A stretch of 21,987 nucleotides of DNA, taken from positions 1 to 21,987 of IMG/VR virus record IMGVR_UViG_3300003873_000673. One strand, written 5' to 3'. Positions 4,384-11,351 of the stretch are shown here, in pieces; position 1 is the first letter of the stretch; each line of letters begins with the position of its first letter. The notes beneath the pieces are model-generated. The model was not told where the DNA came from. It did not search any database and worked only from the letters and a program-made list of their open reading frames with translations. This stretch comes from a virus. Made by a program: the position numbers and the translations under genes.

Positions 4384-4602
4384 ATGGCATTACAAAAGAG
4401 AATTTATTTACCGCGCAGCACAATAGACTATGCAGCGATTAGAGCCGTGTATGAGTATGCAGAAGATGAGGGTTTGACATTTGGCAAGGCGTTAGAGAGA
4501 ATACTCTTGGATTCTCAAAAGTTCAATGTTTATCTTGAAAAACTCTCAAAAGGGAGTGAGTGGTTTGCAAAAGATGCGGAAGATTTTAAAGAGTCTTCGT
4601 AA
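4384..4602 (+). CDS. Small hypothetical protein after terL
   Basis: 72 residues from the ATG at 4384, which has an excellent binding site (GGAGGAG at 4371-4377). The longer open frame starting at 4312 lies within terL and has no such site, so I reject it. The protein is helical and charged (PRSTIDYAAIRAVYEYAEDEGLTF). It sits where lambda has gpW, but a better gpW candidate is at 7861. It could be a head-associated or regulatory protein. Family not recognised. Confidence 0.65.
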   Translation: MALQKRIYLPRSTIDYAAIRAVYEYAEDEGLTFGKALERILLDSQKFNVYLEKLSKGSEWFAKDAEDFKESS

Positions 4603-4630
4603 AAATATGCTATAATTCCGCACATTTTTT
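4575..4630 (+). terminator. Possible terminator overlapping the orphan promoter
   Basis: A 7-bp inverted repeat (TGCGGAA 4575-4581, TTCCGCA 4616-4622) spans the end of the small gene and is followed, after two bases, by six T residues. The loop is long (34 bases) and an inner GAAGA/TCTTC pairing competes with it, so this is a weak call. Confidence 0.25.
4608..4616 (+). promoter_or_regulatory. Rightward extended -10 promoter (TGCTATAAT)
   Basis: TG-C-TATAAT at 4608-4616 is a perfect extended -10. There is no clear -35, as is usual for Campylobacterota sigma-70 promoters. Transcription would begin near 4623. The right half of the element overlaps an inverted repeat (TGCGGAA 4575-4581, TTCCGCA 4616-4622) followed by TTTTTT (4625-4630), so the same place could also act as a terminator of the packaging genes. 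Confidence 0.55.
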
Positions 4631-4787
4631 AAAAAGCGTGCTACAAAAAGAAACATTTATGTGTTGCTAAGTGGCAAAAAATGGTACTAAGTTTGCTGTT
4701 TGTGTAGATATGGTACTATTTTATTAATAAGTTAGGCGTCGAAAGACAATATAGCACACAAATCATTTTTAATTTGGAGGTTGTGTT

Positions 4788-4823
4788 ATGAAAAATGTTA
4801 TTCAAGGTGAAGGTGGACTTTAG
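4788..4823 (+). CDS. Micro-ORF 1 (11 residues), candidate leader peptide
   Basis: ATG at 4788 follows GGAGG (4776-4780) at ideal spacing and reads MKNVIQGEGGL then TAG. Its stop codon abuts the left arm of a 9-bp inverted repeat (4824-4832 with 4861-4869). It could be a leader peptide, a remnant, or chance. The strong binding site and its likeness to the second micro-ORF are why it is listed. Confidence 0.3.
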   Translation: MKNVIQGEGGL

Positions 4824-4856
4824 TTCCATTTTCAAAATAAATCAAAAAGGAATCTT

Positions 4857-4883
4857 ATGAAAAATGGAATCGAAGGTATCTAA
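4857..4883 (+). CDS. Micro-ORF 2 (8 residues), similar start to micro-ORF 1
   Basis: ATG at 4857 follows AAAAAGG (4844-4850) and reads MKNGIEGI then TAA. Its start codon lies in the loop of the 9-bp inverted repeat 4824-4832/4861-4869. It shares the pattern MKN-x-I-[QE]-G with micro-ORF 1. It overlaps the stop codon of the leftward gene by four bases. Confidence 0.25.
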   Translation: MKNGIEGI

Positions 4884-5545
4884 CACCATTTAAAGTAAAG
4901 TGCTTCCCACTCTTCAGCCAAAGTTTTATCTTTGTGCTTGTCTCTTCTATGCTCTATGTAGGGCTTAAAAAATTCAAAGTTTTTTACTATTACATGCTCT
5001 AGAGACTCTTTTACAAGAGTTTCATCAAGCATTTCGCTCTTTATTCCTATGGCTATAATTTCATATGTATTGATTATAGATAATAAATTTCGAATAATAC
5101 TTACACCATCTTCAGTCATAGAACACATATCTGAAGTTTCTGAAATCTGATAATCTTTACATACCCACTTGTGAACCTCTTCATGGTTTAGTGGATTGTC
5201 TATTCTTCTTCTATCGGTAAAGCTGATAACTTCTCCATTTTCATTTTGAATAGCTTGTGTTTTTATAACAGCTTTATCTATATCAAGCCTAAACTCTTCT
5301 AGGTCTTTTACATAGAATGATATCTTTTCATATGCAAGATGTTTTTTATTCCAGGCGTTGTCTTGTTTGTATTTAAGTAATGCAATAATTGCAGATCCAG
5401 CGATGAACGGGTAGGATATTATCTTTACTATATATTCTGCAGATTGAAGATTCACTTCTATAAAAAAAGCAACGCTAATGAGCGTTATAATAGATCCAGT
5501 GATAAGACCTGCTGTTAATGATACATTATCGTATTTTTTTATCAT
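4880..5545 (-). CDS. DUF4760-like membrane protein
   Basis: 221 residues. Two hydrophobic helices near the N-terminus (about residues 9-29, AGLITGSIITLISVAFFIEV, and 38-58) are followed by a soluble helical domain. The C-terminal part (LLSIINTYEIIAIGIKSEML, then FFKPYIEHRRDKHKD and a final EEWEALYFKWC) matches my memory of DUF4760 proteins, whose function is not established. It is the last gene of a three-gene leftward operon, two bases after its neighbour. In a phage cassette with a regulator it may act at the host membrane, for example in superinfection exclusion. That is inference only. Confidence 0.6.
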   Translation of the reverse strand: MIKKYDNVSLTAGLITGSIITLISVAFFIEVNLQSAEYIVKIISYPFIAGSAIIALLKYKQDNAWNKKHLAYEKISFYVKDLEEFRLDIDKAVIKTQAIQNENGEVISFTDRRRIDNPLNHEEVHKWVCKDYQISETSDMCSMTEDGVSIIRNLLSIINTYEIIAIGIKSEMLDETLVKESLEHVIVKNFEFFKPYIEHRRDKHKDKTLAEEWEALYFKWC

Positions 5546-5547
5546 CT

Positions 5548-6288
5548 CTATTTAAACCTTTGAATATATTGCCCATAAAGTGAGGCATCAAACTCATTGT
5601 CATATTCTTCCATCTCTGGTTCACTGTCAAGCTCTAATTCATCAAGTAAATACTCACTTTTTGATACTAAACGATTGAATTTTTTAGCTTTTTCTTCTTC
5701 TGGTAACTCAGATTCCACAATCTTCCTAAATTTGATAAGTTCTTTTACTTCATCCGTTAAACATTCTTCAGCGGTTTCTTTAGCATCATCTACCTCGTAA
5801 AAAGTTACAAAATCAAATTTATCTTGTAGATATTTATCAAATTCATTATATTTTTCCGGTGTTATGAGCTTCCCAATTAGTTTTAATTCTTCAAGTTCTG
5901 TGTCAGTATCTGGATCATCAAAGTAATAGTATCTATAAGGTTTGTCATATGCTATATCTATTGCGGTTCTCAAAATATCCATTTGCTCTTCTATTTTTTC
6001 AGCCTTAATTTCATCTTCTTCGTATTGGTACTTTTCTTCAAGTTTATCAAATCTAGTTTCTAAAGCTTCAATACCACTGAGTGTTTTAACTTTTTCAGCT
6101 ATTTCTTCTGCCTGTTTTTCTTTCTCATCTTCACTCATTGGCGTGAATGTAGTCATTGATTTTTTAGATGGCGTCTTTATTCCTAGTGTTTTATTTATCT
6201 TATTAACAGCTCTTTTTCCTTTTTTTATTTCCTTGTCTATATAGGCATAGGCAATAAAAACCAAAACAAGGACAGTAATGATTTCCAT
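5548..6288 (-). CDS. Membrane-anchored acidic coiled-coil protein, unknown function
   Basis: 246 residues. The N-terminus is one membrane helix (residues about 2-17, IITVLVLVFIAYAYID) followed by a basic stretch (KEIKKGKRAVNK), which predicts a cytoplasmic C-terminus. The remainder is very acidic and largely helical, with a likely coiled coil near residues 52-105 and an acidic tail (SEPEMEEYDNEFD). Its start codon overlaps the stop of the HTH gene and its stop lies two bases before the DUF4760-like start, so the three are surely co-transcribed and probably act together. No family recognised. Confidence 0.65.
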   Translation of the reverse strand: MEIITVLVLVFIAYAYIDKEIKKGKRAVNKINKTLGIKTPSKKSMTTFTPMSEDEKEKQAEEIAEKVKTLSGIEALETRFDKLEEKYQYEEDEIKAEKIEEQMDILRTAIDIAYDKPYRYYYFDDPDTDTELEELKLIGKLITPEKYNEFDKYLQDKFDFVTFYEVDDAKETAEECLTDEVKELIKFRKIVESELPEEEKAKKFNRLVSKSEYLLDELELDSEPEMEEYDNEFDASLYGQYIQRFK

Positions 6289-6494
6289 TATTTTTCTTCC
6301 CCCTCTTGCTTACTTGCCATCTCTTTAAGTTCTATGCAGTTTTTGATCATCTCTATGGTGATGTTGTTTTTTTTGCAGAAGGCTCCGGTTTTTGTTAGTT
6401 CTAGGAGTTTTGGGAATTTTACTTTCCAACCTTTTATTGTTGCTTCACTTTTGTCTGTATATTCAGCTATGTCTTTATAAGTTACTTTTTTCAT
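6288..6494 (-). CDS. Small helix-turn-helix regulator
   Basis: 68 residues. Residues 4-30 (VTYKDIAEYTDKSEATIKGW) read as a helix-turn-helix of the Cro/MerR-like size range, followed by a basic segment and a Lys/Glu tail. It is the first gene of the leftward operon, facing the antirepressor gene across about 150 bases of operator-rich DNA, so it is the likely repressor of one or both promoters there. A TATAAT lies six bases upstream of its ATG and there is no ribosome binding site, so its mRNA may be leaderless, as for lambda cI from PRM. It has no room for a cleavable C-terminal domain as in CI/LexA. Confidence 0.7.
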   Translation of the reverse strand: MKKVTYKDIAEYTDKSEATIKGWKVKFPKLLELTKTGAFCKKNNITIEMIKNCIELKEMASKQEGEEK

Positions 6495-6596: not shown

Positions 6597-6611
6597 TTCG
6601 GCATCTTTAAT

Positions 6612-6627
6612 GTTTCCTATAAGAAAC
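6612..6627. promoter_or_regulatory. Operator 2 (16-bp palindrome) in the antirepressor leader
   Basis: GTTTCCTATAAGAAAC lies just downstream of the likely rightward start site and just upstream of the antirepressor ribosome binding site (AAAAGGAG at 6633-6640). Bound protein would block early elongation or promoter clearance. The TTTCCTAT cores at 6546, 6581 and 6613 are 35 and 32 bp apart, about three helical turns each. Confidence 0.6.
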
Positions 6628-6645
6628 TTTTTAAAAGGAGAATGT

Positions 6646-7422
6646 ATGTCAATGTTAACCGAATTCCAGTTTGGAGAACAAGAAATCAGAGTTGTAGTCG
6701 ATGAGACTACCAATGAACCTTTGTGGGTTGCAAAAGATATCTGCGAGGTGCTTCAATACAAAGAGGTCTCTAAAACTTTATCTAAATTAGATGATGATGA
6801 AAAGGGTACGAAAAAAATTCGTACCCTTGGCGGAGAGCAGAATATGGCGGTCATAAACGAAAGCGGACTCTACACCCTTATCCTGCGCTCAAACAAACCA
6901 GAGGCAAAAAAGTTTAAAAAGTGGGTAACTGCTGAAGTGCTGCCGACTATTAGAAAAACGGGAAGCTACTCAACAACTTCGGGTGTAGACTCAAACGCAG
7001 TGATGCTAGAGATGCTCAAAATGCAACAGCAGCTTATAGAGAACTCCCAAAAACAGACCGAGGCGGTGATAGAGCTTGTAAAGAGTATGCAACAAGCACC
7101 ACAGCTCACGCAAGAGCCACAAACACAGTACCTCGACAGCCGAGACAGAAAAAAGCTGCGTGATGCCATACAGGAAAAAGCCAAAGAGGTGGCCAACGAT
7201 ATTGGCGTGTCAGTCTCAACTATCACACCGGCTATCTGGATCCAGCTCAAAAGCTTCTTTGATGTGGATGATTATCAGGACATATTAAAAAGTCAGATGA
7301 AAGATGTGATGCACTTTGTGATGTTTTGGGAGCCTGAGAAGGGAAGATTTGAGAGAGAAAAACCAACACATCAAATCACACTAGATGAAAACGGCAACTC
7401 TGTTGTGATCCCGATTGTGTAG
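6646..7422 (+). CDS. BRO/Ant-type phage antirepressor
   Basis: 258 residues from the ATG at 6646, which follows AAAAGGAG (6633-6640). The upstream ATG at 6610 is in frame but lies over operator 2 and has no binding site. Residues about 5-105 are a BRO-N domain (LWVAKDICEVLQYKEVSKTL, then GGEQNMAVINESGLYTLILR and a KKFKKWVTAEVLPTIRK end). A helical linker follows, then a C-terminal KLRDAIQEKAKEVANDIGV and WIQLKSFFDVDDYQDI region like ORF6C/antirepressor C-terminal domains. Proteins of this kind counteract prophage repressors and promote induction. It faces the HTH operon and shares its operators. An 11-bp perfect hairpin lies inside the gene (6802-6828). Confidence 0.85.
   Translation: MSMLTEFQFGEQEIRVVVDETTNEPLWVAKDICEVLQYKEVSKTLSKLDDDEKGTKKIRTLGGEQNMAVINESGLYTLILRSNKPEAKKFKKWVTAEVLPTIRKTGSYSTTSGVDSNAVMLEMLKMQQQLIENSQKQTEAVIELVKSMQQAPQLTQEPQTQYLDSRDRKKLRDAIQEKAKEVANDIGVSVSTITPAIWIQLKSFFDVDDYQDILKSQMKDVMHFVMFWEPEKGRFEREKPTHQITLDENGNSVVIPIV
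6802..6828. other. Perfect 11-bp hairpin inside the antirepressor gene
   Basis: AAGGGTACGAA (6802-6812) and TTCGTACCCTT (6818-6828) are exact reverse complements around a five-A loop. It lies in the BRO-N coding region (codons for KGTKKIRTL). So stable a structure is unexpected in AT-rich coding DNA. It could act as an internal attenuator, an mRNA-stability element or a protein-binding palindrome. Confidence 0.7.
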
Positions 7423-8082: not shown

Positions 8083-9457
8083 CATCATACGAAAAGCACT
8101 TACTCTTTTTTCTAAACGGGCATTTTACGAGGGTGGAAAGCGTACTTTAGCCAACCGCGACTTTAACAATGCCAACTCCCCATTTGAGTACACCGCAAAA
8201 CTTGACCGCGATGTGATGCGTGCCCGTGCAAGATGGCTCCATGAAAACAACCCAATTATGGCAAATATCGACAAAGCTATCATCAACAATGTTGTTGGTC
8301 GTGGAATAGGTTTGCAGTCAAAAACGGGCAATAAAAAACTAGATGATGCCATAGAGGCAAGATTTAAGGCGTGGGCAAACAGCTGCGATGTTACAGGGCG
8401 TTTTACTTTTACAGATTTTCAGCGACTTGTTCTCTCCTCACGCATGGTAGATGGGGAGATACTTATCTACAAAGTGATCGTAAACGGTGAGTTAAAACTC
8501 CAGCTAATCGAGGTTGATAATCTTGACAACTCAAGAGGCGACAACGGCATCGAGCTTGATGCCATGGGCAGACCTCTTCGTTACCACTTTAAACTCACTT
8601 ACCAAAACGGCGAAACACAGCTCAAAGAGTTTAGCATCCCTGCAAAGGACATCATAAACTACTTTAACATTGAGCGACCTACACAGTATAGAGGCGTTTC
8701 AGAGTACAAACAGTCAATTTTAGACATCAAAAACTTTAGTGCTTTTCAGAGTGCAACCGTTATGAGTGCAAGAGCCAACGCCGAGATTGCCTACACAGTA
8801 GAGAGTGAGAGAGATGCCGGTGTGTTTGGTGTCGGCAGCGGATTTACAGATTATGATGAGCGAATCCAAGAAATAAACGGGCTTATGGTTTACTACCTAA
8901 GACCTGGTGAGAAAGTAGCAAAACATACAAACAATGCAGGCGGTGCAGGGTATGGAGAGTTCATCACAAGCACAGTCCGCATGATAGCAACAGCACGAAA
9001 CATCTCTTACGAGTTGGCATTTAGAGACTACTCTCAGGTTAATTTTGCTTCAAGCCGTGCATCACTCATTCAAGACAACAAACGCTTTGACAATGAACAA
9101 GAGCATTTAGTCTCTCATGTACTCAATGAGATTTTTGATACATGGATGGAGATAGAGGTTTTATCTGGCCGCATCAAAGTCAATCCTTCCAAATGGGCAA
9201 AAGATAAAAGCCAGTTTATTAAACCTCGTTGGAGTTTTCCTAAGCGTGAGTGGGTAAACCCACAGCAGGATATGAAAGCGATTGAGAAAGAGATAGAGCT
9301 TAATCTCACAACTATGACAGATCTTGCACATGAGAGAGGACATGACCTTGAAGACATACTCAAAACAAAACAAAAAGAGCTTGAACTGATGAAAAAATAT
9401 GGAATCAATCAGATAGAGGATAAACCAACTAAAAAAGGAGGTGAAAAAAATGCCTAA
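8075..9457 (+). CDS. Portal protein, lambda gpB family
   Basis: 460 residues from TTG at 8075, with GGAG at 8065-8068. The family signature is clear: DRDVMRARARWLHENNPIM, then IINNVVGRGIGLQS, MVDGEILIYKV, and a clip/crown region ending in ANISYELAFRDYSQVNFASS-like segments (here ATARNISYELAFRDYSQV). The dodecameric portal is the DNA gate at one capsid vertex and docks the terminase. It overlaps the gpW-like gene upstream and the protease-capsid gene by eight bases downstream. The TTG start may keep portal translation low relative to the capsid protein. Confidence 0.95.
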   Translation: MANIIRKALTLFSKRAFYEGGKRTLANRDFNNANSPFEYTAKLDRDVMRARARWLHENNPIMANIDKAIINNVVGRGIGLQSKTGNKKLDDAIEARFKAWANSCDVTGRFTFTDFQRLVLSSRMVDGEILIYKVIVNGELKLQLIEVDNLDNSRGDNGIELDAMGRPLRYHFKLTYQNGETQLKEFSIPAKDIINYFNIERPTQYRGVSEYKQSILDIKNFSAFQSATVMSARANAEIAYTVESERDAGVFGVGSGFTDYDERIQEINGLMVYYLRPGEKVAKHTNNAGGAGYGEFITSTVRMIATARNISYELAFRDYSQVNFASSRASLIQDNKRFDNEQEHLVSHVLNEIFDTWMEIEVLSGRIKVNPSKWAKDKSQFIKPRWSFPKREWVNPQQDMKAIEKEIELNLTTMTDLAHERGHDLEDILKTKQKELELMKKYGINQIEDKPTKKGGEKNA

Positions 9458-11351
9458 GGCAATGCAAAAGAGAGATGCACTCGTCGGTCAAATCCACGAG
9501 CGAAAAGCACAAGTCGCACAGAGTCAAACATCAAGCGATAGTTTGACTTTTGTGATGGTAAGTGAAAATAACGAGGGGATGCGATACGACTGGAGAATAT
9601 CTGATAGTGAGTTTATCGAGCGGTTGGATATTAACGGTGCGGATATGAGTGGGTTAAATACTTTCTTTAAAAATCACAGTAGAGGTGTAGATGACGCGAT
9701 AGGTCGGATAGAAAACACACGAATGGAAGGAACATCTCTGCTGTGTGATGTAGTTTTTGATGAGAGTGGGTTAGACATCAAGCGTAAGTATGAAAACGGT
9801 ACTTTAACAGATGTGTCAATCGGCTACAAAATCAATAAATACACAGTAGAAGAGAGACAAGGTGAGCCTGACATAGTGACGATAACAGACTTTAGCATAG
9901 TTGAGTTGTCGGCAGTAGGGATAGGCTTTGACAGTGGTGCGAAACATCAAGGCAGAGATGCCAAATTTAATACAGGAGAGGATGAAATGCCAAAAGAATT
10001 ACTAGAGAGACTCGCTAAATTAGAGAAAATTTCTCAAAGAAGTGAAGAGCAGGAAAAAGAGCTTGCACAGGTTCGTGCACAGATTGATACTGAGAAAGAG
10101 CTGCAAACGCTAAGAGCTGAGAAGATGGAAGCTGAGCGAAAAGCTGAGATTTTATCTATCGCTACTGCTTACGGTGCAAGTGCTGAAACACGTGCGAAGT
10201 TTGAAGAAAAAGGAACAGCTGCGGAGTTTATGAAGGCTATCTTGGATGAGAGAGCATCACAGCAAGAAACATTTTATGCACGCGCAAAAGATGATTCAAC
10301 GCGTGATGAGATGATGCGAGCTATTACAGACGCAGTCGCTTTAAAAGCAGGTGTGCAAATCGAAAAACCTCATGCAGATGCAAATATGTTCCGTGGTGCT
10401 TCTATGGTGGATATTGCTAAAAAAGTGTGTGGTTTAAGAGGGTATGATAAAAACGAAATCGCTTCTCGTGCGATGGTCACTGCTGATTTTCCGATGTTGC
10501 TTGTAAATGCTGGTAATCGTGTGCTTGAGCAGGGGTATGCAACACAAACTTCATCATTTGAACAGTGGGTCCGTCAAGTGGATGTTCCTGACTTCAAAAC
10601 AAATACAGACATTACACTTGGAACCTCTGGGCGTCTGTCTAAGCTTAACGAAGCAGGTGAGATCAAAGAGAAACAGCTTACTGAAGCCGGTGAAGATTGG
10701 AAAATTGAATCGTTTGCAAATGAATTTGTACTTACGCGTCAAATGATTGTCAATGATGATTTAGGGGCATTTAACAACCTCTTGTCTGAGTTTGGTCAAA
10801 TGGCAAAAAGAACTGCAAACGGCATCGTTTATGATCTACTTCAAGCCAAAGGTGATTATGCCGGTTACAAAATGAAAGATGGTTTGGCAATTTTTGCAAG
10901 TGGACACAATAACTTAGATTCAAGTGGTGCTGTTATTTCAGAAGCATCACTCACTGCTGCTAGAACTGCGATGATGAGACAAACTTCACAAGGTGGCAAA
11001 GATGCGCTTAATATTGTGCCTGAGTTCTTGATTGTAGCTCCTGAGCAGGAGATTACAGCTCGTAAGCTCATAGCATCTGCTTCTACTTTGGAAACAAGCA
11101 AAAATGAAGGCGTAATCAACCCATTTGCAAACAGTATGAAAGTAGTTGTTGACAGTGAGCTTGCAGGCGGTGCTTGGTATTTAGCAGGTAGTACTCGTAC
11201 AATAAAAGCAGGTTATTTAAGCGGTACAGGTCGTAAACCAATCGTGCAGCTTGATACAACAAGTTTGACACGAACAGTATTCCAAGGTGTATTTGACTTT
11301 GGTGTAGTTGCGGAAGATTACCGCTCACTTTATAAAAATGTAGGCGCTTAA
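9450..11351 (+). CDS. Prohead protease / scaffold / major capsid fusion protein
   Basis: 633 residues from the ATG at 9450. AAGGAGG at 9435-9441 is the binding site, so the GTG at 9441, inside that site, is rejected. Residues about 30-165 are an HK97-type prohead protease domain, with candidate catalytic H76 (FKNHSRGVDD) and S123 (LTDVSIGYKI) and the VELSAVGIGF strand. Residues about 180-260 are a Glu/Lys/Gln-rich coiled coil, the scaffold or delta region. Residues about 290-633 are the capsid fold. Annotated phage genomes do contain such protease-capsid fusions. The protease should release the mature capsid protein during maturation. A strong internal start at 9987 may give a protease-free form. 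Confidence 0.9.
   Translation: MPKAMQKRDALVGQIHERKAQVAQSQTSSDSLTFVMVSENNEGMRYDWRISDSEFIERLDINGADMSGLNTFFKNHSRGVDDAIGRIENTRMEGTSLLCDVVFDESGLDIKRKYENGTLTDVSIGYKINKYTVEERQGEPDIVTITDFSIVELSAVGIGFDSGAKHQGRDAKFNTGEDEMPKELLERLAKLEKISQRSEEQEKELAQVRAQIDTEKELQTLRAEKMEAERKAEILSIATAYGASAETRAKFEEKGTAAEFMKAILDERASQQETFYARAKDDSTRDEMMRAITDAVALKAGVQIEKPHADANMFRGASMVDIAKKVCGLRGYDKNEIASRAMVTADFPMLLVNAGNRVLEQGYATQTSSFEQWVRQVDVPDFKTNTDITLGTSGRLSKLNEAGEIKEKQLTEAGEDWKIESFANEFVLTRQMIVNDDLGAFNNLLSEFGQMAKRTANGIVYDLLQAKGDYAGYKMKDGLAIFASGHNNLDSSGAVISEASLTAARTAMMRQTSQGGKDALNIVPEFLIVAPEQEITARKLIASASTLETSKNEGVINPFANSMKVVVDSELAGGAWYLAGSTRTIKAGYLSGTGRKPIVQLDTTSLTRTVFQGVFDFGVVAEDYRSLYKNVGA
9987..11351 (+). CDS. Nested in-frame scaffold-capsid product (internal start)
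   Basis: AGGAGAGG at 9974-9981 is followed five bases later by ATG at 9987 (codon 180 of the fusion). This falls exactly at the boundary between the protease domain and the coiled-coil scaffold segment (MPKELLERLAKLEK). Translation here would give a 454-residue scaffold-capsid protein without protease. That would solve the stoichiometry problem of making hundreds of capsid subunits but few proteases, much as lambda nests Nu3 in C. Inferred from sequence only. Confidence 0.55.
   Translation: MPKELLERLAKLEKISQRSEEQEKELAQVRAQIDTEKELQTLRAEKMEAERKAEILSIATAYGASAETRAKFEEKGTAAEFMKAILDERASQQETFYARAKDDSTRDEMMRAITDAVALKAGVQIEKPHADANMFRGASMVDIAKKVCGLRGYDKNEIASRAMVTADFPMLLVNAGNRVLEQGYATQTSSFEQWVRQVDVPDFKTNTDITLGTSGRLSKLNEAGEIKEKQLTEAGEDWKIESFANEFVLTRQMIVNDDLGAFNNLLSEFGQMAKRTANGIVYDLLQAKGDYAGYKMKDGLAIFASGHNNLDSSGAVISEASLTAARTAMMRQTSQGGKDALNIVPEFLIVAPEQEITARKLIASASTLETSKNEGVINPFANSMKVVVDSELAGGAWYLAGSTRTIKAGYLSGTGRKPIVQLDTTSLTRTVFQGVFDFGVVAEDYRSLYKNVGA

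Follow-up and report, generated by a model that had tools for sequence, protein, structure and literature searches.

A phage that fuses its prohead protease to its major capsid protein would, if the gene gave a single product, place one protease on each of hundreds of capsid subunits, which raises the question of how such a phage sets its protease dose. We examined this question in a virus-derived stretch of 21,987 nucleotides (positions 1 to 21,987 of IMG/VR record IMGVR_UViG_3300003873_000673; hereafter the window), whose fusion gene contains an internal start signal that offers a simple and testable answer. The relevant features are the following:

9435-9444, plus strand: Shine-Dalgarno (SD) sequence AAGGAGGTGA of the full-length start, overlapping the end of the portal gene; duplex energy -15.9
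9450-11351, plus strand: full-length protease-scaffold-capsid fusion gene, 633 aa; coding 9450-11348, stop codon 11349-11351
9492-9911, plus strand: predicted S78-like protease domain, residues 15-154 (AlphaFold2 model and Pfam S78)
9924-10001, plus strand: predicted disordered linker, residues 159-184, pLDDT below 50
9974-9981, plus strand: internal SD AGGAGAGG, read directly from the sequence; duplex energy -8.0
9987-9989, plus strand: nested in-frame start codon ATG (Met180), read from the sequence; ATG, GTG or TTG in relatives
9987-11351, plus strand: nested scaffold-capsid open reading frame, 454 aa, starting MPKELLER
9996-10349, plus strand: predicted scaffold region, helices, residues 183-299 (AlphaFold2 model)
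10380-11348, plus strand: predicted HK97-fold capsid region, residues about 311-633 (Pfam and Foldseek)

The start of the fusion gene overlaps the stop codon of the portal gene (TAA, 9455-9457). Its protein is matched over residues 14-633 by PHROG 4523 ('major head and protease protein', E 1e-119) and over residues 35-633 by NCBIfam NF045541 ('prohead protease/major capsid protein fusion', E 4e-131), the latter with a score of 438.8 bits that lies under the family cut-off of 525. Protease, scaffold and capsid share one open reading frame in our three-part model, which places the gene in the fusion family, and PHROG 133, which holds ClpP-type fusions, matches residues 179-632. In an AlphaFold2 model built from 35 relatives (mean pLDDT 80.5), residues 15-154 form the strands and helix of a protease. 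The Pfam S78 match to this part is marginal (E 0.001; 19.6 bits, slightly below the cut-off of 21), and TIGR01543 matches five of eight family members, the window protein not being among them. H76, S123 and E152 are invariant across the 35 relatives, and these conserved His, Ser and acidic positions suggest that the protease part is a prohead protease of the S78 or HK97 type. The capsid part is matched by Pfam Phage_capsid_4 (residues 336-630, E 2e-36), by the HK97, phiXacJX1 and D3 capsids in Foldseek (E about 1e-9) and also by Mu gpT, and it is predicted to adopt the HK97 fold. When solved structures were searched by sequence with the window protein, only distant gpT-like capsids were returned.

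Inside this gene, the letters at 9974-9989 read as the SD AGGAGAGG, a five-base spacer (ATGAA, 9982-9986) and an in-frame ATG, as the initial annotation had described (context ...AAATTTAATACAGGAGAGGATGAAATGCCAAAAGAATTA...); counted from the AGGAG core, the spacing to the ATG is 8. The offset from the ATG at 9450 is 537 bases and the nested ATG is thus in frame with the fusion gene, and the coordinates bear out both predicted lengths, 633 residues for the fusion and 454 for the nested product. The placement of this start at the boundary between protease and scaffold holds as well: the AlphaFold2 model puts Met180 in the disordered inter-domain linker, right ahead of the first scaffold helix at residue 183.

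The initial annotation had further proposed that such a start could be a general solution for fused protease-capsid genes, to be sought in relatives. A single-sequence scan yielded one close relative among viral contigs and only two distant partial matches among genome contigs, so we used profile scans to collect relatives. Among 54 non-redundant S78 fusions (group 1; mutually less than 75% identical), 45 carry the signal that we counted, an in-frame linker ATG preceded at 4-12 nt by an SD match. Out-of-frame linker ATGs with an SD occur in 7 of the 54, windows of equal size that touch neither the linker nor the gene's own start score 1-7 hits per 44-54 fusions, and a window that overlaps the downstream end of the linker gives 10 of 54. 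The recurrence of the signal in S78 linkers is not due to chance. Our initial test, restricted to AGGA, GGAG or GAGG followed by ATG, overlooked GGGG-type SDs and GTG or TTG starts, and most of the nine other fusions have AAGGGG- or GGGG-type SDs or start with GTG or TTG; on case-by-case inspection of these misses, a single S78 fusion (L056) was left without a convincing internal site. In five S78 loci (L026, L031, L039, L040 and L088) the linker holds two SD-ATG sites, 22-29 residues apart.

Such recurrence might also arise if the SD-like sequence were a by-product of an acidic or basic linker peptide (GEDEM, KE, EE) in which the methionine is incidental. The closest relative (L002, 87% identical) retains both ATAGGAGAAGATGAAATG and the peptide GEDEM, and when each S78 gene is re-coded synonymously according to its codon usage, about half still show an SD-ATG (24.3 +/- 2.5, maximum 32 of 200). 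However, the observed count exceeds this null by about 8 standard deviations (z about 8, region-level test), and GEDEM is conserved in the closest pair only, while relatives of 40-46% identity carry TTGGGGGAAAATATG (L011), ATAGGAGTTCAGAAATG (L012), TTGGGAGTTCAGAAATG (L013), GAAGGAGGAGATATG (L014) and AAGGAGGATGAATTG (L015) within peptides that are unrelated to one another. Across the S78 fusions the SD occupies each of the three codon registers (14/9/28), a distribution that points to selection on the nucleotides. SD 4-mers occur 4-12 nt before linker ATGs at 0.126, 0.243 and 0.050 per position, compared with 0.006-0.013 before the other ATGs of these genes, and none occur 13-18 nt before linker ATGs, so that the enrichment is confined to canonical spacing. 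The nested sites are also more unpaired than 83% of codons drawn at random from these genes.

The same pattern extends to fusions in which a homologous capsid is joined to a ClpP-like protease (group 2, proteases assigned to ClpP by Pfam). Here the signal is present in 31 of 33 non-redundant members, about 6 standard deviations above the synonymous null of 15.1 +/- 2.6, and none of the 33 has an out-of-frame linker signal. Their SDs are weak (about -6) and spaced 9-11 from the start. Within the enterobacterial/Pseudomonas clade, position -5 holds a GAG, AAG, CAG or GGA codon, which always yields AGGA or GGAGA; the test of this codon used the best-scoring start per gene and is subject to selection bias, and for this reason we rely on the region-level test instead. 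One ClpP-type fusion (L164) has Ile in place of the nested Met (NNIP instead of xNMP), and we saw no other strong site in it. Profile comparison of S78 and ClpP fusions detects homology only from about residue 227 onward, and the position of the domain boundary was thus not drawn from this comparison.

Two further groups of fusions were examined, comprising those of Microbacterium EE, Curtobacterium and Arthrobacter AN phages (group 3) and those of Arthrobacter AU/AW, Gordonia DJ, Streptomyces, Faecalibacterium FP_oengus and Lactococcus P078 phages (group 4). In group 3, 33 of 46 fusions have an SD-ATG, a count that rises to 43 of 46 when any start codon after the SD is accepted, and same-size windows elsewhere give 0-1, except for the leftmost window, which holds the gene's own start. 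In group 4, every one of the 86 loci has a start codon directly ahead of a conserved xNVF motif; this codon is usually ATG, with GTG in 10 and TTG in one. The Met is thus exchanged for codons that can themselves start translation, and wherever it has become Val, the codon is GTG (10 of 10, P about 2e-6), which makes up only 31% of the Val codons in those genes. The synonymous re-coding test was not significant in either group (33 versus 29.2 +/- 2.4 in group 3; 50 versus 45.8 +/- 3.0 in group 4), which the by-product explanation would allow, so that the case in these groups is made by the position and the type of the start codon. Over all the evidence, we consider it very unlikely that the peptide alone produced these sites. 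Two group 4 loci from Arthrobacter AU/AW phages (L184 and L189) contain two SD-preceded in-frame ATGs, one past the protease (residues 241/246) and one closer to the capsid (about 306/308), making three nested products possible.

An S78 protease is common to groups 1, 3 and 4 in profile comparison, in which their scaffold-capsid halves gave no detectable match to one another, and these sequence comparisons suggest that the fusions of the four groups likely arose separately. The generality anticipated by the initial annotation extends to nearly all of the fusion genes examined, in four groups and with two protease folds.

A nested site at a domain boundary could also act on the elongating ribosome. 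SD-like sequences have been proposed to pause ribosomes, and a pause at this position might let the protease domain fold before the capsid is synthesized. A pause does not need a start codon 4-12 nt downstream, yet the codon there remains ATG, GTG or TTG, and out-of-frame ATGs lack the pattern (0-7 per group); we regard pausing as a highly improbable explanation. It could be argued, too, that the nested start is a functionless relic of two genes that fused recently, given that related loci exist in which protease and capsid are separate open reading frames (L057, 2770-5229; L081, 1028-3576). However, a relic would be expected to decay, and the persistence of the site among relatives with 25-30% protein identity and across the four groups of fusions, together with its re-encoding in different registers, counts against this origin and leaves it a very slim chance. 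In both of these split loci the separate capsid frame starts with a signal-like hydrophobic stretch that precedes the scaffold helices, which is odd for a capsid protein.

We consider it highly likely that the window gene instead produces two proteins from one mRNA by initiation at two starts. Initiation at the ATG at 9450 would give protease-scaffold-capsid, and initiation at the internal SD and ATG (9974-9989) would give scaffold-capsid. Both products would co-assemble via the scaffold-capsid part that they have in common, with a protease consequently present on just a fraction of the shell subunits; this protease would then remove itself and the scaffold to leave identical mature capsid subunits. 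We infer the co-assembly and the later loss of protease and scaffold from HK97, in which gp4 is the protease and gp5 combines scaffold domain and capsid, the scaffold being fused to the capsid N-terminus (PMC10275583). The domain order is that of the window and gp5 is the counterpart of the nested product, but HK97 has two genes with a stop codon between them (4025 / 4028); the window gene would in effect be the HK97 gene 4 / gene 5 pair minus the intervening stop codon.

The proportion of the two products is a separate matter. The initial annotation expected a minor full-length and a major nested product, an expectation that the duplex energies do not support: in the window the full-length SD is stronger than the nested one (-15.9 versus -8.0), the two SDs have about the same strength across S78 fusions, and in ClpP fusions the nested SD is usually the weaker. 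Mechanical calls of full-length starts are biased toward strong SDs. SD strength was tried as a predictor of the product ratio and found no support. Upstream coupling and ribosome traffic could alter the ratio.

Nested starts of this class are already known, since those of lambda nu3 and Mu Z are annotated. Lambda C (4418-5737) and nu3 (5132-5737) are a full-length protease-scaffold and a nested product with a common C-terminus, and, as in the window, the nested start is in frame at the protease/scaffold boundary; the lambda protease is of the S49 type, unlike the S78-like one here. In Mu, Z is likewise annotated as starting within I, in frame and at that boundary, its site caacaggagaacaaacccATG resembles the fusion sites, and the capsid family matched by the window protein (gpT) is named after Mu T. 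In both phages, however, the capsid is a separate gene (E in lambda, T in Mu), and the nested product is scaffold only in lambda and lacks the capsid in Mu, whereas the nested frame of the window continues into the capsid. The fusion start is thus a variant of the lambda/Mu arrangement that differs in that the major capsid protein is part of its nested product, and inner initiation would for this reason set the protease-to-capsid ratio. In herpesviruses, UL26 is a protease-scaffold and UL26.5 a scaffold made in larger amounts, and the two have a common C-terminus; unlike in the window, UL26.5 comes from a separate nested transcript and the herpesvirus capsid protein from a separate gene.

Protease-capsid fusions are named in several papers (PMC6536676, PMC9671004, PMC9753647, PMC6606914 and PMC12750149). 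The annotations of NF045541 and of its ClpP-like equivalent NF045540 describe a single product and leave a nested start unmentioned, and no nested CDS is annotated in the fusion records that we examined. The initial annotation knew of no description of the start in this family, and we found none in the literature searched, which left most subscription papers outside its reach; the nested start in fusions is probably new, although its mechanism has precedents in lambda C/Nu3 and Mu I/Z. Cleavage should leave the two products indistinguishable and so make ordinary virion proteomics blind to the nested one, which may be why the nested start has gone unnoticed.

Overall, we think it likely that the nested start is under selection and nearly universal in phage protease-capsid fusions, spanning two or more protease folds and several subfamilies of capsid, and that these genes are covert two-product operons, lacking an intervening stop codon, in which inner initiation sets the protease dose per capsid. 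This would imply that hundreds of annotated 'fusion' genes conceal a second gene product, and it suggests that a lambda/Mu-style nested module was kept while protease and capsid types were swapped around it.

Elsewhere in the window, a three-gene cassette on the minus strand (4880-6494) is inserted between the terminase and portal genes and encodes a DUF4760 membrane protein, an acidic 246-aa protein and a small HTH-like protein. A PADLOC search of this cassette gave no match; it adjoins a Bro-N/ORF6C gene (6610-7422) and is a candidate accessory or immunity module.
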